Positions 1,909-23,184 of a stretch of DNA of 45,109 nt are shown here, in pieces (the first letter of the stretch is position 1; each line of letters begins with the position of its first letter). The notes under the pieces are model-generated. The model was not told the origin of the DNA, searched no databases, and was given only the letters and a program-made list of their open reading frames with translations. The position numbers and the translations under genes were made by a program. This DNA is from an uncultured Caryophanales bacterium (lineage in GTDB: Bacteria; Bacillota_I; Bacilli_A; Acholeplasmatales; Anaeroplasmataceae). The stretch covers positions 1 to 45,109 of the forward strand of contig CAMOUB010000002.1 of the NCBI GenBank assembly GCA_946626345.1. Reading direction: 5' to 3'.

Positions 1909-3063
1909 TTAATAAACTAAATTAGATGTTGCTAAAGTAGGTATATTATATAAATATTGAATACCATAATCCATATTACCTACATTAGATAATAAAACAT
2001 GTGAATTAGTAAAATCACTATCTACTTTTCCAAAATATTCATAAGATAGTTTTGGTGTTAATACATGGTTATAATAATATATTGGATCATCCCATGTTAG
2101 ATCAAATCCATACCATAAATTATTAAGCTTTACATAATTCCAAGCATGTGATTCTGAGTGGCTACCATCTACTCCATATCCTGAGCCAAATGCACATTCT
2201 ATATTATTTTTACCTAATAAATATTGGAATGATTTAGCATATGATTCACATACACCTTTTCCTTTTGTCATAATACCAATTATATTATGAGAATATGATG
2301 AATCATCAGCTGTTACGCCATCTTCTTTAAATGCATAAGATGAATTATTAATAATATAATCATGTATCTTTTTTACTTTTTCTATATCATTTTTACAATC
2401 TTTAATTTCTTCTTTTATTAAATTTTCATATGTTGTAATCTTTTGATTAAAATCTTGTCTTACTGATGCTAGATGATAATCTTCATCACATATTAATTGT
2501 AAATATTGACTAGTACCCTTTGATCCATTTAATAATAAATTATCTAAGAAATAGAATTCAGGATAATCTAAAGATACTGTTTTATAAATAGCTGCCGCTT
2601 CATTATAAGATAGATTATATTTAGAGAAATTAACATTATTATCAATAATATAATAATCACCTGATGTGCTATCTCCAAATACAATATGAGTTGTCTCTAA
2701 ATCAGTATTTGATGAGTAGAAAGTATTAAGTGAATTATATACATCTTTATAAAAAGAAATATATTTATCCTTTTTTTCATATTTTAATAAATCAGAATAA
2801 CCATACATTATAAATTCATCATCATCAGAATCTGTTGATGAAGTTGACTCTTCTGTTATATCTTCTTTTGTAGTTTCAGTTGGGATATCTATAGATGATT
2901 CAGTTGTATCTTTTGGTGTATCACTTTCTGTAGTTGTTGTAGGTTCTACAGATTCAGAATCTATTTCTTCAATAGAAAACATATCCTCAAAAAAGCTACA
3001 TGATGCAAGTGAAAATGCGCCTAAAATTCCCATACTTAAAATAATACATTTTTTTAATTTCAT
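1909..3063 (-). CDS. Lipoprotein with transglutaminase-like (cysteine protease-fold) domain
   Basis: 384 aa. The signal peptide has lipobox SLASC (Cys about 22), so the protein should be lipid-anchored outside the membrane. Residues about 30-85 are a low-complexity Thr/Ser/Glu/Asp linker. The C-terminal half carries a transglutaminase-like core: KGKGVCESYAKSFQYLL supplies the Cys, SHAWNYVKLNNLWYGFDLTW the His and the start of the Asp motif (DLTWDDP). Such domains in Firmicutes surface proteins are thought to act as peptidases or cross-linkers of cell-surface protein; substrate unknown. A possible promoter TTTATA-N17-TAAAAT lies upstream. It is divergent from pepT. Monocistronic by its own terminator. 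Confidence 0.8.
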   Translation of the reverse strand: MKLKKCIILSMGILGAFSLASCSFFEDMFSIEEIDSESVEPTTTTESDTPKDTTESSIDIPTETTKEDITEESTSSTDSDDDEFIMYGYSDLLKYEKKDKYISFYKDVYNSLNTFYSSNTDLETTHIVFGDSTSGDYYIIDNNVNFSKYNLSYNEAAAIYKTVSLDYPEFYFLDNLLLNGSKGTSQYLQLICDEDYHLASVRQDFNQKITTYENLIKEEIKDCKNDIEKVKKIHDYIINNSSYAFKEDGVTADDSSYSHNIIGIMTKGKGVCESYAKSFQYLLGKNNIECAFGSGYGVDGSHSESHAWNYVKLNNLWYGFDLTWDDPIYYYNHVLTPKLSYEYFGKVDSDFTNSHVLLSNVGNMDYGIQYLYNIPTLATSNLVY

Positions 3064-6373: not shown

Positions 6374-7654
6374 TTATTCTTCAATGTCCTTTTTATCTTC
6401 TTTATTAGACATATCATCTATTTCATCAACATTTTTATTTTCTTCTATTTGTTTTACTTCAGGTTTATTTTTACCAGATTGATCATAAGCAAATGATTCA
6501 GGCTTTTGTTCAGGCTCTTTATTAACAATCTTAGCTCTAATAACAGTCTTTCTATCATTTCTAAAGATAAAGTCTCTAAGCTTTTGGAAATGGAATAATA
6601 AAACATAAATAACAAATAATACTAATACAACTAATGCTTCAATTCCAATTGTTCTCCATACTGCTTTAGCAACAACTGAACCAGTAAAGATTTCTTTTTC
6701 TTGTAATGCCATTTTAACATGACTATCAAATTTATTACCAGCCTTTAGGTCAGCATTGAAATTATCTAATGTATTATTGAATGTTTCAGTTTTCTTTTGA
6801 TATACTTCTTTAGATACTTCTATTTTATTTGTAATAGTGTATTTTTTAGCTAACTTATATGAATCATAATATGGAAGATAATCCTTATAAGCATTAAATA
6901 CTATTCCGGCTTGATCATCATTATAGAATAATTCATCGAAATTAAATCCAAAATTAATATTTGATTCAAATACTTTAGTCTTTTCATTATCAATAATATT
7001 AAATGATACAATGTCACCATCTAATTTTTCTTTAATAGCTTTAATAGTTTCTTCTGTAATTTGGAAATTATAAAAACCATATCTTGTTCTATCACTAATG
7101 AAATCTCTAGCATAATTTAAGGCATATTCACTAATAGATTTTGGCTTAGTATTATAGAATTCAGCATTAGAATTTGCAGAAATTCTAAATGGGAATAAAT
7201 AAGTTAATGCATTACCATTATCATCTAGCTTTGATGATACAAATTCAATGCCTGTTGAATTAACCTTTATATTATTATCTTCTAATGTATCAGCTGATGA
7301 GAATTTTGAATTAAAGATATAAAAATTATATGCCTTATTAAAGCCATGATATAATACACCTTTTTTCTCAGTTTCATCAGGGTAATATAAGAAATTATTT
7401 TCAGCAGCTGATGCTGATACAATTAATTTTAAATCATCCTTTGATTCATCTACTGATGGAATGTCATAATATAAGCCACCAAATAGAACTTGAATATTTT
7501 CATAGTCTTTTGCTGCAATATAATCATTTGTTAATTTAATAATATGATCGCCCTTTGCAGTATTAAAGAATATCATACCTGTAAAAATACAGATTATTGC
7601 TGCAAAAGAAATATATAAAACTTTTATAATAAGTTTACCAGTTTTATTTCCCAT
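6374..7654 (-). CDS. Two-TM membrane protein of unknown function
   Basis: 426 aa, not recognised. Residues about 8-30 are an N-terminal transmembrane helix or uncleaved signal (VLYISFAAIICIFTGMIFF). Residues 31-325 are a polar extracytoplasmic domain rich in Lys/Asn/Tyr, residues about 330-352 a second helix (TIGIEALVVLVLFVIYVLLF), and the last 70 residues a cytoplasmic tail strongly rich in Lys/Glu/Asp. This in-out-in layout resembles membrane scaffolds or sensors but no enzymatic motif is visible. RBS AGGAAGG lies upstream of the ATG. Promoter TTGAAT-N16-TACAAT (7720-7693) reads into it. It is probably in one transcript with bioY, separated by an attenuating hairpin. Confidence 0.7.
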   Translation of the reverse strand: MGNKTGKLIIKVLYISFAAIICIFTGMIFFNTAKGDHIIKLTNDYIAAKDYENIQVLFGGLYYDIPSVDESKDDLKLIVSASAAENNFLYYPDETEKKGVLYHGFNKAYNFYIFNSKFSSADTLEDNNIKVNSTGIEFVSSKLDDNGNALTYLFPFRISANSNAEFYNTKPKSISEYALNYARDFISDRTRYGFYNFQITEETIKAIKEKLDGDIVSFNIIDNEKTKVFESNINFGFNFDELFYNDDQAGIVFNAYKDYLPYYDSYKLAKKYTITNKIEVSKEVYQKKTETFNNTLDNFNADLKAGNKFDSHVKMALQEKEIFTGSVVAKAVWRTIGIEALVVLVLFVIYVLLFHFQKLRDFIFRNDRKTVIRAKIVNKEPEQKPESFAYDQSGKNKPEVKQIEENKNVDEIDDMSNKEDKKDIEE

Positions 7655-7781: not shown

Positions 7782-7858
7782 GGCGCACATGGTGAAGTGG
7801 TTAACACATCGGATTGTGGCTCCGACACGCGCAGGTTCGATCCCTGTTGTGCGCCCCA
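7782..7858 (+). tRNA. tRNA-His (GTG)
   Basis: Acceptor arm GCGCACA/TGTGCGC with the extra G-1 that pairs with discriminator C73, as only tRNA-His has. Anticodon arm TCGGA-TTGTGGC-TCCGA gives anticodon GTG. T arm GCAGG-TTCGATC-CCTGT. CCA is encoded at 7856-7858. Confidence 0.96.
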
Positions 7859-8207: not shown

Positions 8208-11200
8208 TTACATAAATTTATCTCTTATTTCTATTACAAATGCAATTGTAGAATCTGCTGTTAATAATTTTACTTGTGATAATGACTCACAATTATTATT
8301 AACCTCATAACAATTAGTTAATAATGGATCAATAAACTTATATGGTAATAATACATTTCCTGAATCAACTAAATTATAGTTATCATGTCCTTCAATTTGA
8401 ATTACTGAAGTATTTGTAATATATGTTTCATAATTAATCAAATTACCTGAAACCATAAATCCAGAGATTAATAGGTCAGATACAATATATGATAATATAT
8501 TAGAATCTAATACTGTATAAACTTCTTCTACACTTAATCCGGCAAGTACTTCAAAGTCAATAACAATACTAAATGATTCAGTATTAAATACCTTTATACC
8601 TGCAAGTAAATTAGTTATTTCAGTTGCTGATAATATACATATATCATTATTTTGCCAATCTTTTTCTAATGTAGCATATAATTCATCCTTTAATACATAA
8701 GTATTTCCAGAATCATTTCTTACTTGTTTTGTAATAGTCGCTCTTAAAATGTAGCTTGATACTACACTTTCAGGATTTGTTACATCTGTTGGCTTTAATG
8801 TATTTGCATCAAAGCTACCAAATGTAATTTCTTCTGCTGTACCATGTTCAATAGCTAATAATAATTCTTTAATATATTCAGCCTTTAAAATCATGATATC
8901 TGGTGTGAAATCAAATGTGTTATAAGGAATAACTACTGATTCGTTTTCAACTAAATTCTTAGAGAATGTTGCTCTTATAATCATTGATTCATCAATTGTA
9001 GAAATTGTTGTATCATTGATTCTTAATAAATCCATATTAAATCCATGAATATTAGATACATTACATCCTATCATAAAATCTCTTATTCCTTCTAATTCTT
9101 CTTTATAATAGAAATAATCTGTATTAGATACTCTTTCATCTAAATATTTAGATTTATTATGTTCAACTATATCAGGATTATTACTGATTTCTTCATGAGC
9201 CTTAATATAAATTATATCCCAAACTGATAGTGAATTAGATACTATAGAGTAATCTATATTTTCATCAACTATTAATGATGAATAATCAGTATGAATCTCA
9301 AAATCAGAAATTGAATTAAATCCTAATTCATTAACTGCGCTAATTGCGTTTACTAATTCAGATTTCATTAAGAATTTATAATCATCTGATTCATATCCTG
9401 ATTCTAATTCTTTAATTGCAGATATAACATTTGCTCTATTACCTAATGTATTTAATGTATCAAAATAATTATTAGATAATGTAGCTTTCATAATGATTGA
9501 TGTATAAATAGTATCAATTTCATCTTCAGTTAATTCTAATAATTTATTTTTAACTGTTGTATTATTTAATCCATTTTCAGAATTAATTTTAACATCATCT
9601 AAAATAAATACATTTGCACTATCTAATATATGATTAATTTCATCTGTTAAATACCATATATTATTAGCAAAATCATTTGTTAATTTATCCTTTGTGGCAT
9701 TAGCTAAATGGACACTTGGAATAATTAAATCATCTGATACATCAGGTAATTTATAAGTAATAGTTGCATTAAAGATTAATGATTCAACTAAATCTCTTGC
9801 AAGTCTTATTGTAATAATATTAGGATTATAATTAAATTCTTCAATATTTATTGCTCCATCAATTCCTACAGTATAGAATGATTCCTTATTTACAGTTATT
9901 TTATCTAAGAATAGCTTAGCTTCATTAATAGTTAAATAAGTATTATTAGCTTCATTCTTTTCTAATACTATATCAGGAATAACTATATCTTCTTTAGAAT
10001 TCATCTTAGAATAGATAGTTGCTCTAAAGATTTTTGATTTTGCAAGTGTTTGATTATTATCAATATTTAATATAATACTATTCATACTAGGATTAGATAA
10101 ATCAAGATTTAATACATTTATTACATCTAATAAATCCATAATATCATCTTTTACAATTAAATTATCATCTACTATTATTGAATCAGTTGGTACACTAATA
10201 TCTTCTGCTTCATTTACATTAAATGTAATTGTTGCCATTAATATATAAGAATTACCAATAGATTCTTTTGTATTATCATTAATAATAATATCTGATGGAG
10301 AGAAATCATTAATATCAATTTCATCTTCCCCACTAGATTCTTTTACTATATCCTTTAATGATTTAATTTCAAGCTTCTTATAGAATGATGTTTCAAGTCC
10401 ATATCTATTTTCATGAGCTTTAATATGATCTTTTATTTTATCATTTTCTATAATTACATCATTCATCTTATTTGATACTATATTCCATACAATAATAGAA
10501 TCATATAATTTATCAAAATTAATATCATTATTAAATATTATATTAATATAATTAGCACTATCTATCATACTAGCATTATTAATACCTAATTCTTTTAAGG
10601 CATTAATTAATAATTTAACCTCAGATGATTTATATGTTAATTCATTAAAAGTATCATCTAGCGTATAAGTTATAGCTAATGCTTCTTTTGAATAATTAAT
10701 TACATCAGCTGAAGCTAATGTATTAATATTTTCATCTAGCTTATTAGATATTGTATAATTTACAATTATTGATTTGTAGCATAAATCAATATCACTATTT
10801 GATAAATCAAATACTTTATCCTTAATTTCATCAGTATTAACTTCACCAATTGTTTTATTTTCACCAACAATAGTAATTAATGAATTTAGCATATTATCTA
10901 ATTCTTCTTTTAAATACCATGTAGTATTAATGAAATTATTAATTAAATATTCCTTGTTAGCTTCTTGTTCTAGCTTATTTGGTATATCTATACCATAATC
11001 TAAATTATTAGCTATTTTATTAATAATAGTAGCATGTAAGATATTAGAGCTTGTAAAATCAAATAATTCTTCTATCTTAAAGCTGTTTTCTGAAATATTA
11101 ATATTAACTATGTTAACTTTAACATTTTCATCACTAGTACCAAATATATTTTCTCTATTAGCAACTAATACAGAAAGTAAATTATGTAATTCAGTTTCTG

Positions 11201-12125
11201 ATATATAATCATTATTTAATGTATAAATGTTATCATTTGGAATTACAAGGGTATCATTTGATGATATTTCATTATCAAATGTAGCTCTAAAGATTTTTGA
11301 ATCAACTAATGAATCAATATCAGCTTCCTTTAAATATATTTCTTCAATATTAGCTTCTTCTAAATCTAGATCTAATTTTTTAGCTACAACCACAATCTTA
11401 GATATTTCAGATTTTAATATAACCTTATATGAAATTTCATCTTTTATATATGTATCATTATCATCATATGCATCTGTAGGTATTATTACACCCTTTACAT
11501 CTTCACTTGTCATATGATTTGATAATGAAGCCTTTAATATTTCAGATTCATAACAAGCATCAAGCTTTGTATAATCCTTACCTGGAATTTCATCATTTAG
11601 CTTCATTATATTATTTTTTAATAAATTGGCTGTTTGTTCTTCATCATTTAAATCAATATCACTATTTGATAAATCAAATGCATAGTCTAATCCCTCAATT
11701 AATTTATTTAATTCTTTTGTTTCTTTCCAAATATTTGTATCTAAATATTCTTTTAATTCATCCCTTGAGGCATCATTTTTATAATTATCAGGTATTGTAA
11801 CAAGGTTCTTTATATTTGAATCTCCATTAGCCATATAATTAATTACAGTGGCATTAATTATATCACTTTCAAGTAATCCATCTTTATTATTAATTATAGT
11901 TTTAATTAGATTAGTATTATCTGTATCAGATATACTAGGTAATATTACAACTAAGCTATCTACTACAGATATTAATTCTTCTTTTTTAATTAAATTAACC
12001 TTATTTGAATCAATTGTTTCTAATACTGTATTAGGAACAATTATTTCAACACCAGATATAACTGAATAGCTTACAATTAAGCCTGATACAACAGATCTAA
12101 ATAATGTTGAATAGAATATTGTGCT
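8208..12125 (-). repeat. About 15 degenerate protein modules with a five-module super-period
   Basis: By eye, modules of about 70-105 residues begin with variants of L-x-S-x-I-[IL]-x-AT-[IL] (for example ESDIINATVINYM, DSKIFRATFDNEI, KSKIFRATIYSKM, ESLIFNATITYKL, SSYILRATITKQV). They continue with [VI]-I-P and an E-L-x-x-L helix. FDLSNSDIDL occurs twice, and the W-Y-L-x-x-E-[LI] module type occurs about every fifth module, so a block of about five modules seems to have been duplicated. Confidence 0.7.
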
Positions 12126-14198
12126 TGCAGGAGATGGTTCTCCTTCATATTTTGTTCCTAGTGCTTTAAATATATCAACAATTAAATCATTTCTTTCTTT
12201 TTCAGTACCTTCTGTAAATACCTTATATTTCTTTAATGATTCAGTTAAGAAATCATTTTTTAATAGTATCTTAAATGCTTCTAAGAAATTATATGTTTCA
12301 CCATTTAGCATTAAAGAACCATCTGTATTATATTGATTAGCATAAGATATTCTTGGTACATAAATATCAGGTATATATGTCACTAAGAAGTTTTTAATAG
12401 CATTTGCACCACTACCTGTTTGGAATGCTCTATCTAATATTTTTGAATCAGATACTAATGATTGAATGTTTTCATATTTTTCCATGTTTTCTTGTGCGTT
12501 AGGATTATTTCTATCAAACATTTCTAATATGTTAGTAAATACATCTTGATTTTTATTATAAACATTTTTAGCAATAGATATTGTATCTTTAGATGCTTGT
12601 AATAAAGATTTAATTTCAAATACCCAGTCAAATGTTTCATTTTCAAGTCCTCTAAGTAATACCTTAGCTGATGTATTTTCTACATTTGAATTATTAGGAA
12701 CTGCGTTCTTTAGATATCTATTATCAAGATAAATATATAATCTTTCTAATATAGAATTCATTTCAGTTTTTCTTTTATCACTTAATATAGATAATTTTTC
12801 TAAAGAAGGTAATACATTTTCTAATAAATTCATAATCTTCATTGCATCATCATTTGTTTCATCTAATTTTAATGATGATAATGCAACCTTTAATAATGAT
12901 TTAGCATCATCCTTAGTTAATAAGCTTGATGCTTTCATAAATGGTCTAATTTGATAATTAGGATTAGAATCTATATTATCTAGGTCAGCCTTTTCTTCAG
13001 GGATATATTTAGATAAATATCCTTTTTTAAATACTAATGATATTAATCCAACTGCATCACTATCAGTATTTACTTTTAATTCATCTATATGATTTACAAT
13101 AGAATCTAACAATGATAATGAGAAATTAACAAAATATGTTTTAGCATCAAATGAATCTATTACTTTATTAAATTCTTGTTGGAATCCCTCATTAGACATA
13201 ACAGACATTAATGTATTCATGATATCTTTATTATCATTAATAGCACTAACTATTTCATCTTTACCATATTTCATTAATAAATCGATTGTTGTTCTTGCAA
13301 ATTCAGTATAAGCACCCATTTCATTTGCGAAATTGAAATTAGCATTTATTCCTCTTTCAGGATCATTAATTTTACCAGAGAATACTAAATCAGCTGCGTA
13401 TAGATAAAATGGCATATTATCTTTTACTTTAATTGTATTTAATATTTTAAATATACCAGCAGTACCATATGAACCAAATGCTTCATATACTTTATATCCT
13501 TCTGTTAATTTAGAATCATTAAAGGATATATCATCTTTATATTTATTTTCACCAGTTCCTCCTGCAATATAGAAAAATGAACCAATAAATGCTAAAACAA
13601 CAATACCTGTAACTAAGCCTCTAATAGCACCTACAATCATTCCTAAGAATCTATGCTTTTTATATTCTTTATCAGTTTCAAGCTTATTGTTAGCTTCTTC
13701 GATTTTTTCTTTTCTTCTTCTTTCAGGATAGAATATTAAATAAATAATATAGAAAATAAATACTAAAGCTAAATAAATGAATATGCATAAAAATGCTAAA
13801 ATTATTTTATATACAAGTAATACTAGCTGTAATAAGTATTGTCCATTTTCTTTTAATATTAATTGAATACCATCACCATAATTCATTTGTTTTGGTATAT
13901 ATTCAATTAATATTTCAGTCATTTTAGAAGATTCCTCAGATACTCCAAGCTGACGCTGAAGACCACCTTTACCCATAAAATTATTTATAAATCCTACTAG
14001 GCCAGAATCTACCGTTTTAGAATTAGTAAGCACTGCAAAAATAATAATACATATTACAAATGCAACAAGTGCGTCTATAGCAAGTATTAAACTTTTTCTA
14101 AATCCTCTAATAATTCCTAATATAATAGCGAATATTAAAATAGATAAAAATAATAAAGTTGGTATTAAAATTACTAAGGTTTTAGCCATATCGCCCAT
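8208..14198 (-). CDS. Giant CvpA-like membrane protein with a large degenerate repeat array
   Basis: 1,996 aa. The first about 225 residues resemble a CvpA-type membrane domain: four hydrophobic segments, with GFRKSLILAIDALVAFVICI early and RFLGMIVGAIRGLVTGIVVL after a charged cytosolic loop. CvpA proteins are normally about 160-250 aa, so this one is about eight times longer. The following 1,770 residues are hydrophilic, rich in Asn/Asp/Ile/Leu/Glu and low in Cys. From about residue 690 to the C-terminus they form about 15 diverged modules with consensus S-x-I-x-x-AT followed by an I-P motif. Where the large part lies relative to the membrane is not certain; presumably outside. Strong RBS AAGGAGG before the ATG, own promoter and terminator. 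Function unknown; the size and repeats suggest a structural or adhesive role. Confidence 0.7.
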   Translation of the reverse strand: MGDMAKTLVILIPTLLFLSILIFAIILGIIRGFRKSLILAIDALVAFVICIIIFAVLTNSKTVDSGLVGFINNFMGKGGLQRQLGVSEESSKMTEILIEYIPKQMNYGDGIQLILKENGQYLLQLVLLVYKIILAFLCIFIYLALVFIFYIIYLIFYPERRRKEKIEEANNKLETDKEYKKHRFLGMIVGAIRGLVTGIVVLAFIGSFFYIAGGTGENKYKDDISFNDSKLTEGYKVYEAFGSYGTAGIFKILNTIKVKDNMPFYLYAADLVFSGKINDPERGINANFNFANEMGAYTEFARTTIDLLMKYGKDEIVSAINDNKDIMNTLMSVMSNEGFQQEFNKVIDSFDAKTYFVNFSLSLLDSIVNHIDELKVNTDSDAVGLISLVFKKGYLSKYIPEEKADLDNIDSNPNYQIRPFMKASSLLTKDDAKSLLKVALSSLKLDETNDDAMKIMNLLENVLPSLEKLSILSDKRKTEMNSILERLYIYLDNRYLKNAVPNNSNVENTSAKVLLRGLENETFDWVFEIKSLLQASKDTISIAKNVYNKNQDVFTNILEMFDRNNPNAQENMEKYENIQSLVSDSKILDRAFQTGSGANAIKNFLVTYIPDIYVPRISYANQYNTDGSLMLNGETYNFLEAFKILLKNDFLTESLKKYKVFTEGTEKERNDLIVDIFKALGTKYEGEPSPASTIFYSTLFRSVVSGLIVSYSVISGVEIIVPNTVLETIDSNKVNLIKKEELISVVDSLVVILPSISDTDNTNLIKTIINNKDGLLESDIINATVINYMANGDSNIKNLVTIPDNYKNDASRDELKEYLDTNIWKETKELNKLIEGLDYAFDLSNSDIDLNDEEQTANLLKNNIMKLNDEIPGKDYTKLDACYESEILKASLSNHMTSEDVKGVIIPTDAYDDNDTYIKDEISYKVILKSEISKIVVVAKKLDLDLEEANIEEIYLKEADIDSLVDSKIFRATFDNEISSNDTLVIPNDNIYTLNNDYISETELHNLLSVLVANRENIFGTSDENVKVNIVNINISENSFKIEELFDFTSSNILHATIINKIANNLDYGIDIPNKLEQEANKEYLINNFINTTWYLKEELDNMLNSLITIVGENKTIGEVNTDEIKDKVFDLSNSDIDLCYKSIIVNYTISNKLDENINTLASADVINYSKEALAITYTLDDTFNELTYKSSEVKLLINALKELGINNASMIDSANYINIIFNNDINFDKLYDSIIVWNIVSNKMNDVIIENDKIKDHIKAHENRYGLETSFYKKLEIKSLKDIVKESSGEDEIDINDFSPSDIIINDNTKESIGNSYILMATITFNVNEAEDISVPTDSIIVDDNLIVKDDIMDLLDVINVLNLDLSNPSMNSIILNIDNNQTLAKSKIFRATIYSKMNSKEDIVIPDIVLEKNEANNTYLTINEAKLFLDKITVNKESFYTVGIDGAINIEEFNYNPNIITIRLARDLVESLIFNATITYKLPDVSDDLIIPSVHLANATKDKLTNDFANNIWYLTDEINHILDSANVFILDDVKINSENGLNNTTVKNKLLELTEDEIDTIYTSIIMKATLSNNYFDTLNTLGNRANVISAIKELESGYESDDYKFLMKSELVNAISAVNELGFNSISDFEIHTDYSSLIVDENIDYSIVSNSLSVWDIIYIKAHEEISNNPDIVEHNKSKYLDERVSNTDYFYYKEELEGIRDFMIGCNVSNIHGFNMDLLRINDTTISTIDESMIIRATFSKNLVENESVVIPYNTFDFTPDIMILKAEYIKELLLAIEHGTAEEITFGSFDANTLKPTDVTNPESVVSSYILRATITKQVRNDSGNTYVLKDELYATLEKDWQNNDICILSATEITNLLAGIKVFNTESFSIVIDFEVLAGLSVEEVYTVLDSNILSYIVSDLLISGFMVSGNLINYETYITNTSVIQIEGHDNYNLVDSGNVLLPYKFIDPLLTNCYEVNNNCESLSQVKLLTADSTIAFVIEIRDKFM

Positions 14199-14350: not shown

Positions 14351-14425
14351 AGGGGTATGGTGTCAATGGTAGCACACGGGTCTCCAAAACCTTTGGTTCG
14401 GGTTCGAATCCTGATACCCCTGCCA
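14351..14425 (+). tRNA. tRNA-Trp (CCA)
   Basis: Acceptor AGGGGTA/TACCCCT, discriminator G, encoded CCA at 14423-14425. Anticodon loop CTCCAAA gives CCA. T arm TCGGG-TTCGAAT-CCTGA. The top pair of the anticodon stem is a C-T mismatch. The 3' half is repeated 1.26 kb downstream (15640-15684), marking it as an integration site. Only a CCA anticodon is seen, which fits UGA being a stop. Confidence 0.94.
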
Positions 14426-17406: not shown

Positions 17407-17470
17407 ATAATATAATTTTATCATAGTTTTATAAAGAAAAAATGTAGGAATTAAATCCTACATATTTTTT
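17407..17470. repeat. About 64-bp direct repeat, copy A (downstream of the TIR-NACHT gene)
   Basis: It differs from 20701-20765 by one substitution and one A-run length difference. It contains the terminator hairpin ATGTAGGA/TCCTACAT (17442-17449 with 17456-17463) of the TIR-NACHT gene, with a T-run on the minus strand, plus an AT-rich tail next to the GGDEF break. Confidence 0.85.
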
Positions 17471-20400
17471 TATCTATTCATATATTTTAATATGAATTCA
17501 TAGAAGAATAATAATTTTTTATTTAGTACTTCATATAATCCATTGTATGCTTCAGTACTTATTCCATCTTCTTTTAACATTTCCTTTAATGATTCATCAA
17601 ATGTTTCATATGATGGATTCTTTTCATCCATTTTATTTTTTAAATAATGCATTTCAAAATCCAATTTACATATTAAATCAACGCTTACTATTGGCCATAT
17701 TTTTTCATTTTTTGACAAGAATGAATCGATAATTTCAGTTAATATTTCTTTATCATTAAACTCAATATATTTTACCTTTATTTTAGTTAAGCATTGTTTA
17801 TAAATCATATCGTAGATATAACAAGCTGCAAAATAAGATCTATATATTTCATGTGATATAGAATTACCTGTAATAATCTTTCTTGCCTTTAAGTGATTAT
17901 ATAATTTTTTAGCATATTCATTTAATTCTATATCACTAAAAGAAGAATTCTTTTTATCTAATGACTCCATTTCTTCATCGCTTAAATTAAGAACTACATC
18001 ACTTGGTTTTTTAATATACTCCTTAAATAGTTTTTCGACATCTGGTGTATTTATATCACATAAATCATATGCTAATTTAGTTAATATTTGTCTTGCTGAT
18101 AAATGAATTGTATCGAAAATATCATTTCCTATAGTTCTTTCATTTTCTAATGCTGTAATCAATAATTCTTCTGACTTATCAATGATTTCATATTTTTGTG
18201 TATATAACTTATTTGTTACAAAATAAATATAAATTAAATTTGATATTAATAATGGATTTTTCTTTATATCATCAGATAATATTTCTAAAGTTTGCATAAA
18301 TGCTTCTTTAGAAACTTTATTATTAAATGATATAGTATGCTTATTATCATCCAACTCTTTATCTTTTGATTTTTGTCTTTCTAGTATATTATCAAATAAT
18401 TTAGATATGTCTTCATCATCCATATTTCTAATCTTTAAATTTAAAGAATCAATATTATTATCAGCTATTAATTTTGAGTCAGATAAATTTCTAGATGAGA
18501 ATATTAAATGAATATTGTCTTTTCTATTATTCTTATAGAAATCAATTGCCATATTAACAATTGATTTTGTTTTATCTAATGCTTCATCTAATGCATCAAT
18601 AATAATATAAAAATCTAGTTTATCACTGATTAAAATATTAGATAAATCTTCTCTTATATGATAATATTTTTCTTCTTTAAAACTTATTTTTCTAATAATA
18701 TCTAATAAGTTATTAGTTTTATCTATTTTAGTTTTAATTTCAGAACATGGTAAATAGAAAAATAATTTATTGTTATTTAAATTAATTCTAATTAAATTTT
18801 TTAGATATAAAGACTTACCTGTACCACCAGCTCCATAAATTAATATTGGATTGTTTTTATAATTTAATATATCATTTACATTATATTTTTTATCAACGCC
18901 TACTAAATCTCTATTAATATATCCATTTTCAAATGTTAATGATGTGACAATTGTTTCATCCTTTTGCTTATTCATAACATCACTTAATGTTACCGGAAAT
19001 ACATCATATGATTTTTTTTGAATATTTCTATATTCTCTAAATAATTCTTCTTTTACTACAGTTTTAGTGAATTTTAAAATACCTGCTTCATTATTTTCAT
19101 CATAATTAAAATCAACAGTAAGTGGAATTAATTTAGTAAATGAATTATCTTGCTTATTTAATTCATTAATTACATCTTTCACATCATGATTATCATCTTT
19201 TAATACATATATTTTTATATTCTTATCTGTTATATTTTTTTCTTTTAATGTGTTAAAAATCATTTCAATTTCTTTTGGAATAAAATTACTACTATATGCA
19301 TCATATGATAATAAGATTATATATCCCTTAGCTCTTCTTATACCCTCTTTTACTGCTTCAGTTAGTTCTCCTCTAGCACTAGTATCACTTTCCCATACTT
19401 GATATTTATTGTTTTCTAAAAATAATTTTAATTTATTCTTTTCTTTAGAATTATTATGATTCCAACTAATAAATATATCTATATTTTCAGGAATATTAAG
19501 CTGATCTACATTTTGTTTGTTAATTAAATCTTCAATTTCCTTGATTAAATCATCACATTGAGTATATCCGTTATCATATGCTTTTTTTAACCATTTTAAT
19601 GCAGTATTATAATCTTCTTCTACACCTTCACCGCTATAATAACAATATCCAAGGTTATATTGTGATTCAGCATCGCCTTGTTCGGCTGCTAATTTATACC
19701 ACTTAAATGCCTCTTCTTTATTTTCCTTGACCCCTTCACCATTATCATAACAAATACCCAAATTAAACTGGGCTTTAATATGGCCTTGTTCGGCTGATTT
19801 CTTAAACCATTTAAAGGCTTCTCCAGAGTTTTGTTCCACACCATCACCTTTTAAATAACAAAGGGCCAAATTAAATTGAGCTTTAATATGACCTTGTTCG
19901 GCCGCCAATTTATACCATTTGTAGGCTTCTTTGTTATTTTCTGCTGTGCCTTCACCATTAGCATAATATATACCTAAATTAAACTGGGCTTTAGCATAGC
20001 CTTGTTCGGCTGCTAATCTACACCATTTAAAGGCTTCTCCAGAGTTTTGTTCCACACCATCACCTTTAGAATAACAAAGGGATAAATTAAATTGAGCTTT
20101 ATCAATCCCTTGCTCGGCTGATTTTCTATACCACTTAAATGATTCTTCTTTATTCTTTTCTATTTTCTCTCCAAAACCATAAAAAGTGCCTAAACTAAAT
20201 TGTGCTTCTGCATGACCTTGTTCGGCTGCTAATTTACACCATTTAAATGCTTCTTCTTTATTCTTTTCAACTCCCACACCAAAAAAATAGAGGTTTGCCA
20301 AATTAAACTGAGCACTTGTATGGCCTTGACTTGCCGCCAATTCATACCACTTAATTGCTTCTTTTGTGTCTTTTTCTATTCCATTTCCACTATAATAACA

Positions 20401-20667
20401 ATAACCAACATTATACTGTGCTCTTGCATAGCCTTGTTCTGCAAATGATTTAAACAATTTAAATGATTCTTCTTTATTCTCTTCTATTCCAATTCCATAA
20501 AAATAACAATATGCTAAATAAAGACCATATGTATAGTCATCTTTATGTTTTGATAAATAATCAATCATTTCTTTATAATTGAAATCATTAGAAAATTTAA
20601 TTTCACTATATGGATTATTATCGTCACTTATATATTTAATTAATTCATCTAAGGTATTTATTAGCAT
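17470..20667 (-). CDS. Sel1-repeat/TIR/NACHT protein, NLR-like STAND ATPase, candidate anti-phage defence
   Basis: 1,065 aa in three parts. Residues about 47-371 hold nine 36-residue Sel1 repeats (for example QFNLGICYDNGEGVKENKEE), a helical solenoid for binding. Residues about 395-530 are a TIR domain (IDIFISWNHN; GYIILLSYDAYSSNFIPKEI, whose Glu sits where TIR NADases have their catalytic Glu). From about 585 there is a NACHT-type NTPase: Walker A GAGGTGKS near 611, Walker B FYIIIDALDEALD near 687, LIFSSRN sensor 1, and ISHEIYRSYFAACYIYD near the end. The order is unusual: bacterial NLRs usually put the effector first and the sensor last, whereas here the solenoid is N-terminal. Inference: phage sensing by Sel1, oligomerisation by NACHT, NAD+ cleavage by TIR. 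RBS AAAAGGGAG. Single gene, flanked by direct repeats. Confidence 0.85.
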   Translation of the reverse strand: MLINTLDELIKYISDDNNPYSEIKFSNDFNYKEMIDYLSKHKDDYTYGLYLAYCYFYGIGIEENKEESFKLFKSFAEQGYARAQYNVGYCYYSGNGIEKDTKEAIKWYELAASQGHTSAQFNLANLYFFGVGVEKNKEEAFKWCKLAAEQGHAEAQFSLGTFYGFGEKIEKNKEESFKWYRKSAEQGIDKAQFNLSLCYSKGDGVEQNSGEAFKWCRLAAEQGYAKAQFNLGIYYANGEGTAENNKEAYKWYKLAAEQGHIKAQFNLALCYLKGDGVEQNSGEAFKWFKKSAEQGHIKAQFNLGICYDNGEGVKENKEEAFKWYKLAAEQGDAESQYNLGYCYYSGEGVEEDYNTALKWLKKAYDNGYTQCDDLIKEIEDLINKQNVDQLNIPENIDIFISWNHNNSKEKNKLKLFLENNKYQVWESDTSARGELTEAVKEGIRRAKGYIILLSYDAYSSNFIPKEIEMIFNTLKEKNITDKNIKIYVLKDDNHDVKDVINELNKQDNSFTKLIPLTVDFNYDENNEAGILKFTKTVVKEELFREYRNIQKKSYDVFPVTLSDVMNKQKDETIVTSLTFENGYINRDLVGVDKKYNVNDILNYKNNPILIYGAGGTGKSLYLKNLIRINLNNNKLFFYLPCSEIKTKIDKTNNLLDIIRKISFKEEKYYHIREDLSNILISDKLDFYIIIDALDEALDKTKSIVNMAIDFYKNNRKDNIHLIFSSRNLSDSKLIADNNIDSLNLKIRNMDDEDISKLFDNILERQKSKDKELDDNKHTISFNNKVSKEAFMQTLEILSDDIKKNPLLISNLIYIYFVTNKLYTQKYEIIDKSEELLITALENERTIGNDIFDTIHLSARQILTKLAYDLCDINTPDVEKLFKEYIKKPSDVVLNLSDEEMESLDKKNSSFSDIELNEYAKKLYNHLKARKIITGNSISHEIYRSYFAACYIYDMIYKQCLTKIKVKYIEFNDKEILTEIIDSFLSKNEKIWPIVSVDLICKLDFEMHYLKNKMDEKNPSYETFDESLKEMLKEDGISTEAYNGLYEVLNKKLLFFYEFILKYMNR
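19555..20526 (-). repeat. Nine tandem 108-bp Sel1-repeat units with a recent two-unit duplication
   Basis: Units 4 and 6 are nearly identical over tens of bases (around 19815-19900 and 20032-20115, two units = 216 bp apart), and units 5 and 7 are also alike. This shows recent copy-number change within the putative sensor. Confidence 0.85.
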
Positions 20668-20778: not shown

Positions 20779-23184
20779 TTATGGTTCGGTCGGATATTCC
20801 ATATCTAGATTGCTATCAAGAGCTGCAAAGAATAATCTAATAGATGTATCACTTGAACATAAGCTATATTCACCTGGCTCTAATACTGTTTTAAAAGCTC
20901 TTAAAACTAATTCTTCTTCTAGTGGTATTTCTTCTATTTTATTTAAATTATTATCATATAATGCTAGATGTCTTAAATCAATTCTACTTGAGTCATTAGA
21001 AGCAATTACAACAAGCTGTGATTTTTTAGTTACTTTAATTCTTAATGAACCATAGTCATAATGATTTCCGTTCTCACCTACAATTAAACAAGAATAATAA
21101 TATGTATTGCAACAACGAGTAACAAATGATTTAAACTTAGTTTTTGGAGATATTATGAAATTATCATCATAAACATAGTCATTAGTAGAATAACCAGCCT
21201 TAACAATATCTGGATCATTAGATGTTACAACTTCTGGATAAAATTTTGCATCAAAATTATAGGTATTAAAATCGTATTGATCATAATAATTCTCTTTAGC
21301 TGCATTTGGTGTAAATGTAACATTATAATATGGATTTTGATTTTGTAAAACTTCACCATTACTTGTTATTACTGTACCTGCATATAATGCTACCTTACCA
21401 TTTGTAAATTCACCAGGCACTATATTTAATTTACTTAAATTAGTTACAGTTTGAATCTTAGGACAGTTATTGAATGCATTATAAGCTATTTCTTCTACAC
21501 TACTTGGTATTGTTATATTTGTAATACTAGAACCAGAAAATGCGTATGAATCAATAAATATTAAACTTTCTGGTAATTCTACATTTATTATAGTTTTATT
21601 TCCATTAAATGCTTTAGTATTTAATTTAATTACACTATCAGGTAATATAACTTCAGTTAATGAATTAGATGCAAACGCAGATTTACCAATTGATGTTACA
21701 CAATCTGGGAATATAACAGATTCTCTTGTCTCCGTATAAAATGCTCTTCTAGCAATTGAATATGTATAACGCGTAGGACCATTTGATGGTAATACCAAAT
21801 TAGGATCATCATCAAGTTTTCCAAGTAAATAATCTTTATTATTATATGTATAGAATTGATATCCGTCATCAAAAATTGAAATATCTGATTCTTCAGTTGT
21901 TTTAATATTAATAAAATCAGATTCTCCATCTAAAACTCTATTTCCGTCAGCATCAAAAAAATCTTTTGTAACATTTACATTACTTAAATTAATAAATTCA
22001 ACCATTTCTAAGCACATCATAAATGAATCATTTTCAATAGATTTTACACTAGATGGAATAGTTATACTCTTAACACATGAACATGCATAAAATGCTTTAC
22101 TGCCTATTTTAGTAATAGTATCTGGTAAATAAACATATTCTAAAGAATTTTTCAAATATGTCTCAAATGCCCCATCTCCAATTTCAGTTACAGGCTTACC
22201 ATTATACGTAGATGGAATTATTACCTCTTTTGGCAAATCAACATTTGCACCATCTGTATAATAAGATTTTTCTTCAAATCCATCACAAATATAACTATCA
22301 GTATCAGCATTATAAATAAATACTAAACCAGTGGTTGCTTCTTCTGTAACATCAGCAACCTTTTTCCATTTTGCAGTTAATTTAATACTCTTATTAATAA
22401 TATCGTTGAAATCCCATTTTTTATTTTTGTTATACCAACCTAAAAATTCATAACCAGCTCTTGTATTAATCTTAGGTTCTTTTGCTTTCTGATTTTTTTC
22501 TATTATTTGTCTAGATACATATAATTTATCTACTCCTGTATCAAATGATACAGTAACATATTTATTATTAACTATAATTGGTATACCTGTATCATAACCA
22601 TTTATAACCCAAGTATAATTGGTTGAAATAGTAATAGTTAAGTTAGTATCATTGATATCAAATACATATGTCTTATTATCATAAAATTTAATTTTAAAAT
22701 TCTTATGATTTAATCTTTCAATTGATTCAATTTCATTAAATGTATATTCTGATTTAGAATTTGGAATCAATAAATCATATGTTGATTCGTCAGAGAAAAT
22801 AAAACTATATACATTGTCATCATTATCATTAAATGTTTTTCTTAATTTAACAATATTAGCATCATCTTCTGTATTATTTCTAATGTTATCAACAAAATCA
22901 TCGAAATTAGCTGACTTATTAGATATCATTTTATTATTTCTAGATTCTACACTTTCTTTTGGCATATTTGATAATAAATATAGGCCAAACATCTTGGCTT
23001 CATCTAAATTCTTGACATTATCAGATTCATCCAATACAGTAAATGTTTTTGATTCAAAATCAATATCACCATTAGGCTTTATTATATCATTAGTTGTATC
23101 TATTGAATCATTACTTGCTTTATTACAACTAACAAGCACAAAAAATGATAAAAATATGACAAAAAGCATAAATCTTTTTTTCAT
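20779..23184 (-). CDS. BspA-like leucine-rich-repeat lipoprotein with an InlB-type B repeat
   Basis: 801 aa. The signal peptide ends in lipobox VLVSC (Cys about 20). Residues about 205-270 form a Listeria-Bacteroides (InlB B/Flg_new) repeat: VTVSFDTGVDKLYV, then AGYEFLGWYNKNKKWDFND and LTAKWKK. Residues about 320-600 hold LRR_5/BspA-type repeats (LPDTITKIGSKAFYACSCVK, SITIPSSVKSIENDSFMMC, FPDCVTSIGKSAFASNS, ITIPSSVEEIAYNAFNNCP). The last 200 residues are a beta-rich domain of unknown type. Surface-anchored, probably for adhesion to host or bacterial surfaces. Strong own promoter (23260-23232); terminated in direct repeat B. Confidence 0.85.
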   Translation of the reverse strand: MKKRFMLFVIFLSFFVLVSCNKASNDSIDTTNDIIKPNGDIDFESKTFTVLDESDNVKNLDEAKMFGLYLLSNMPKESVESRNNKMISNKSANFDDFVDNIRNNTEDDANIVKLRKTFNDNDDNVYSFIFSDESTYDLLIPNSKSEYTFNEIESIERLNHKNFKIKFYDNKTYVFDINDTNLTITISTNYTWVINGYDTGIPIIVNNKYVTVSFDTGVDKLYVSRQIIEKNQKAKEPKINTRAGYEFLGWYNKNKKWDFNDIINKSIKLTAKWKKVADVTEEATTGLVFIYNADTDSYICDGFEEKSYYTDGANVDLPKEVIIPSTYNGKPVTEIGDGAFETYLKNSLEYVYLPDTITKIGSKAFYACSCVKSITIPSSVKSIENDSFMMCLEMVEFINLSNVNVTKDFFDADGNRVLDGESDFINIKTTEESDISIFDDGYQFYTYNNKDYLLGKLDDDPNLVLPSNGPTRYTYSIARRAFYTETRESVIFPDCVTSIGKSAFASNSLTEVILPDSVIKLNTKAFNGNKTIINVELPESLIFIDSYAFSGSSITNITIPSSVEEIAYNAFNNCPKIQTVTNLSKLNIVPGEFTNGKVALYAGTVITSNGEVLQNQNPYYNVTFTPNAAKENYYDQYDFNTYNFDAKFYPEVVTSNDPDIVKAGYSTNDYVYDDNFIISPKTKFKSFVTRCCNTYYYSCLIVGENGNHYDYGSLRIKVTKKSQLVVIASNDSSRIDLRHLALYDNNLNKIEEIPLEEELVLRAFKTVLEPGEYSLCSSDTSIRLFFAALDSNLDMEYPTEP

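Follow-up and report, generated by a model that had tools for sequence, protein, structure and literature searches.

A CvpA-type membrane domain joined to a giant helical repeat array: a putative surface protein of Anaeroplasma-like and related bacteria

Giant proteins of 1,000–6,000 residues, in which a CvpA-type membrane anchor is followed by an array of repeat modules, apparently constitute an undescribed family in many related bacteria. The member described here is encoded in the window, the whole 45,109-nucleotide stretch of DNA that was analysed, from an uncultured Anaeroplasma-like gut bacterium whose genome assembly comprises 1.43 Mb in 114 contigs and is 76% complete. With roughly even confidence, we propose that it is a membrane-anchored, length-variable giant surface protein that acts as a stalk; its fold and topology are predicted, and we infer the stalk or adhesion role.

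Gene and domain organization

The gene lies on the minus strand, starts with ATG and has no internal stop. Its features and flanking tRNA genes are as follows.

14351..14425, plus strand: tRNA-Trp, conserved upstream neighbour
8208..14198, minus strand: coding sequence, 1,996 aa, reading frame intact (stop codon at 8208-8210)
13554..14198, minus strand: CvpA-like four-helix membrane domain, residues 1-215 (hydropathy, profile comparisons)
14121..14177, minus strand: TM1, residues 8-26 (hydropathy)
14031..14087, minus strand: TM2, residues 38-56 (hydropathy)
13749..13805, minus strand: TM3, residues 132-150 (hydropathy)
13584..13640, minus strand: TM4, residues 187-205 (hydropathy)
12120..13553, minus strand: helical linker, residues 216-693, conserved among family members (mostly helices in the AF2 model of residues 1-705)
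11877..12119, minus strand: module m0, residues 694-774 (HMM)
11556..11876, minus strand: module m1, residues 775-881, FDLSNSDIDL copy 1, type shared with m4 and m9
10260..11555, minus strand: super-repeat block 1, modules m2-m6, residues 882-1313
8997..10259, minus strand: super-repeat block 2, modules m7-m11, residues 1314-1734
8514..8996, minus strand: partial block 3, modules m12-m13, residues 1735-1895
8211..8513, minus strand: terminal degenerate module m14, residues 1896-1996
7783..7858, plus strand: tRNA-His, conserved downstream neighbour

A phage origin of the protein was considered and rejected, there being no PHROG match and no structural match in BFVD.

The N-terminal membrane domain

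Four strongly hydrophobic helices lie within the first 205 residues, and hydropathy reveals none comparably strong beyond them. The domain shares with CvpA (PF02674) these four N-terminal membrane helices and their spacing, the R-G after TM1 (within G-x-x-R-G-x-R-K), the G-x-x-x-G at TM4 (within G-x-x-x-G-x-x-R), and profile kinship. The protein itself matches no Pfam family at E values up to 1, and its own score never reaches the PF02674 gathering score. The kinship is seen in profiles and relatives: profile A6, built from the N-termini of its family, retrieved stand-alone CvpA proteins of 241–252 aa (E 6e-9 to 1e-5), and HHalign against 28 local CvpA orthologs gave p = 1.6e-5, covering TM1–TM2. 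Among the relatives, 6 of 31 N-termini matched PF02674 (best E 1.3e-5), members of its own family reach it at E of about 2e-4, and a 1,612-aa relative with 12 modules (L172) scored 31.4 bits against a Pfam gathering score of 29.3. These results support the sequence-only reading that the N-terminus is CvpA-related.

The main difference is one of length. The local CvpA proteins are about 240–260 aa long and end soon after TM4, whereas the window protein continues for about 1,780 residues, close to the 1,770 first estimated. Given its 1,996 residues, against a CvpA size range of about 160–250 aa, we class it on sequence grounds as a CvpA-domain protein rather than as CvpA, and the same genome has a separate gene for a normal CvpA at another site (G000:C9, L001). 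Sequence searches found no CvpA relative in the PDB. The AlphaFold2 model of residues 1–705 (pLDDT 80.7) is nearly all helical and had no structural match there.

The N- and C-termini are predicted to lie outside the cell, which would make the ectodomain extracellular. This topology is based on the positive-inside charge distribution in 83 relatives, where loops 1 and 3 carry net charges of +2.8 and +5.7, and the N-tail, loop 2 and the post-TM4 segment carry −0.4, −3.6 and −4.6. The ectodomain contains 0.34% cysteine (family median 0.2%), and the other tabulated window proteins are all higher, at 0.68–2.55%. It also evolves faster than the N-terminus, with 41% versus 62% identity in the genome G009.

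The transmembrane part of mycobacterial MarP is probably CvpA-like. In MarP (Rv3671c), four N-terminal transmembrane helices tether an extracytoplasmic C-terminal domain (PMC4992679), providing a precedent for the arrangement predicted here, although the tethered part of MarP is a trypsin-like protease and the whole protein has about 400 aa, whereas the window protein carries a helical repeat array. A cleavable signal peptide and an LPXTG-like C-terminus, features of surface adhesins, are absent from the protein when its sequence, with its four-helix N-terminus, is read by eye, and no other anchor was found at its C-terminal end.

The repeat modules

HMM iteration recovered 15 degenerate modules, each about 85 residues long, from residue 694 to 1996, with a weak extra match at 601–652, in agreement with the number first proposed. 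Their consensus is approximately S-x-I-L-x-A-T-I-S ... I-V-I-P ... Y-I-x-x-x-E-L-x-x-L-L-x-A-L. When 150-aa segments were aligned to the rest of the protein by BLAST, significant internal repeats were found, with E values down to 4e-13, compared with a best E of 4e-5 over 60 composition shuffles. A module HMM built solely from the window protein matched none of 300 shuffles and also recovered modules in relatives. In its own genome all 13 HMM matches fall inside this gene, and none lies elsewhere.

Prediction of three adjacent modules, m2–m4, by AlphaFold2 from 39 aligned rows yielded a confident, all-helical array with about three main helices per module (mean pLDDT 93.9, pTM 0.90). These scores suggest a fixed inter-module geometry; the model spans 3 of the 15 modules, and the rigidity of the full array is an extrapolation from it. 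No entry in Pfam, NCBIfam or the PDB covers the module, and Foldseek of the three-module model against the PDB and BFVD gave no match below E 0.7. The fold may be new; the structural comparison covered the PDB and BFVD. Matches to HDOD, SIM_C, RNase_H and YfiM in the relatives were set aside, as no stretch passes on its own.

Weak profile matches to calbindin and calmodulin in the PDB (E 0.002–0.01), together with an I-x-x-x-E spacing as in EF-hands, raised the idea of calcium-binding EF-hand-like repeats. However, the expected D-x-D-x-D-G pattern was not found, Asp occurring in just 20% at loop position 1, 10% at position 3 and 12% at position 5, and Gly in 12% at position 6; the loop length varies, and the canonical module profile retrieved nothing from the PDB sequences at E 0.1. 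We therefore rejected this kinship as highly improbable.

The degeneracy of the modules, whose mean column identity is 18%, would also suit an adhesin or a host- or particle-binding protein in which the modules carry binding sites and recognition drives the variation in length and sequence. Many of the relatives were recovered from metagenomes of the rumen and gut (their genomes are mostly MAGs titled Acholeplasmatales, Anaeroplasma or Anaeroplasmataceae), and in several species a second, paralogous giant locus adjoins BspA-type LRR proteins. Against this explanation, no known adhesin domain was matched in the window protein with Pfam or NCBIfam, and the conserved Ser before helix A, the IP/VP motif and the Glu that starts helix B look structural, unlike a binding loop. 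We regard it as rather unlikely.

The five-module super-repeat

The modules are organized on a larger scale. The mean module–module Z is 5.6 at an offset of five, and no other offset up to 10 exceeds 2.0. Modules m2–m6 pair one by one with m7–m11 (Z 5–12, summed Z 44.5, permutation p = 0.0002), confirming the block duplication that the sequence-only reading had proposed, and the self-alignment places residues 885–1340 against 1317–1761, at an offset of 421–432 residues. Modules m12 and m13 form a partial third copy of the block. The accompanying claim, that module types recur at every fifth unit, holds for the blocks and for m4 and m9 but fails for the FDLSNSDIDL pair on which it partly relied: these copies, at residues 841 (m1) and 1130 (m4), are three modules apart. 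Modules m1, m4 and m9 are of one type (the W modules), of which m4 and m9 fit the period of five and the m1/m4 pair does not.

Across the relatives, the iterated HMM counted 3–27 modules, the lowest counts coming from partial or distant proteins; among close, complete relatives the range is at least 7–27. The close relatives L032 and L033 have a period of five like the window protein, and in L032 (about 55% identical; same contig as L096) it extends over 20 modules (p = 0.014). L034, with 3,067 aa and 27 modules, suggests a period of three, and other relatives periods of one to two. Since the offset-permutation p values in other proteins are mostly 0.05–0.2 or higher, and below 0.05 only in L032, periods other than the five of the window protein are only suggestive.

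Distribution of the family

A profile of the first 705 residues detected the protein in 48 of the 55 genomes of the GTDB (Anaeroplasmataceae-type) family, and in 27 of the 31 of good quality, nearly always in one copy. The N-terminal profile matched in 107 of 160 genomes at the order level, for the most part in frames longer than 1,000 aa, and in 122 of 395 sampled genomes at the class level (E 1e-5), in open frames of up to 6,056 aa; short CvpA proteins are among these matches. The module, searched for with an HMM whose source proteins belong to the same order as the window, is borne by most giants examined (E to 1e-196, several below 1e-150), and these reach 4,446 aa at the order level and 2,941 aa at the class level. 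In the window protein, the CvpA-like N-terminus and the module HMM matches lie within one reading frame. Modules of the window family and class-level modules are related by profile–profile comparison (p = 1.4e-15). The giants of family f9 (up to 6,049 aa) and members of f2 and f11 have the N-terminus and no recognised module, so that the CvpA-type anchor seems to carry other ectodomains as well. Giants also occur in single-contig genomes (G049, G253), which makes an assembly artefact unlikely.

Giant CvpA-type genes are in places paired as neighbours, encoding 2,941 and 955 aa (L173, G253:C1), 2,636 and 1,322 aa (L180, G259:C43), and 2,121 and 1,087 aa (L157, G053:C23).

The sequence-only reading knew of no described protein with this plan. 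Our paper searches and the family libraries agree, in that no publication describing a CvpA-anchored giant of this kind was found, an absence that is not proof; the plan is not confined to this protein, as the family is class-wide. Gli349 of Mycoplasma mobile, in the Mollicutes, is a very long, repeat-built extracellular protein. We know of no CvpA anchor or window-type module in it or in Giant1–5 of Apilactobacillus kunkeei. The latter, from the Bacilli, are likened to the window protein by description, being very long, repeat-built and extracellular (PMC12863079).

The locus and the cell wall

In most family members, the gene of the giant is flanked by tRNA-Trp and tRNA-His. Two giants lie between the same tRNAs in f2, and in an f4 member tRNA-Trp is found slightly upstream; the locus is common to families f1 and f2, and probably to f4. 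Three congeners lack the giant (G003, G004 and G010), and in them the two tRNAs lie 38–313 bases apart, with the usual neighbour genes next to them. The gene is thus dispensable, and since the occupied locus is common to several genera, its loss is the simpler reading for these three species.

Beyond tRNA-His lies a conserved neighbour (6374-7654, minus strand), a 426-aa protein of no recognised family with two hydrophobic segments, which is retained also in species without the giant. Other genes of the window, all on the minus strand, encode a 384-aa protein partly similar to MAG6410-family transglutaminase-related lipoproteins (1909-3063), an 801-aa lipoprotein-like protein that combines BspA-type LRRs with a Listeria-Bacteroides repeat (20779-23184), and a 1,065-aa protein (17470-20667) that carries a TIR domain in addition to Sel1 repeats and a weak NPHP3_N-like stretch and may function in signalling or defence.

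FtsW/RodA was not found in the window's own genome, at its completeness of 76%. It is present in 20 of the 55 family genomes and patchy even inside one genus, some genomes being incomplete, which suggests repeated loss of the wall machinery in the family. Several FtsW-positive genomes also encode the giant, indicating that it is not tied to wall loss. A link between array length and cell-wall loss was rejected, as FtsW presence and protein size have no visible relation.

The chief rival to a surface stalk or adhesive rod is a structural surface coat of which the giant would be a part, an envelope-integrity or cell-shape scaffold that would lend stiffness to the membrane in cells whose wall is missing or thin. 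The near-universal and usually single-copy presence of the gene in the family and its shared locus favour such a role, and the deoxycholate (bile-salt) hypersensitivity caused by loss of CvpA in Escherichia coli (PMC6705877) fits an envelope function. However, three congeners cleanly lack the gene, it occurs in genomes with and without FtsW, and the module number varies widely among close, complete relatives; we consider the scaffold unlikely, if a little less so than binding by the modules.

A model for a proposed surface stalk

In the stalk model, the CvpA-type four-helix domain would sit in the cytoplasmic membrane of a bacterium that is probably without a cell wall, with both ends outside. 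This anchor would hold about 1,780 extracellular residues, namely the helical linker followed by 15 three-helix modules in a stiff array. The array would lengthen or shorten as individual modules or whole blocks are duplicated or lost, and such a length-adjustable stalk would position a surface for contact or adhesion at a distance from the membrane. One point against an adhesion stalk is that presence in 48 of 55 genomes exceeds what accessory adhesins usually show.

The function of CvpA is unclear. Our findings would give this common membrane protein a second function, namely to anchor a giant protein that lies outside the cell. They also describe a repeat domain that is missing from every library searched yet present in many genera. 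With slightly less than even confidence, we suggest that these undescribed, class-wide CvpA-anchored giants, which would define a new type of helical repeat and perhaps also a new fold, constitute one of the main structures on the cell surface in Acholeplasmatales and in related Bacilli, most of them uncultured. Given the small size, regularity and confident prediction of the module, its structure, topology and role are directly testable in culturable acholeplasmas.
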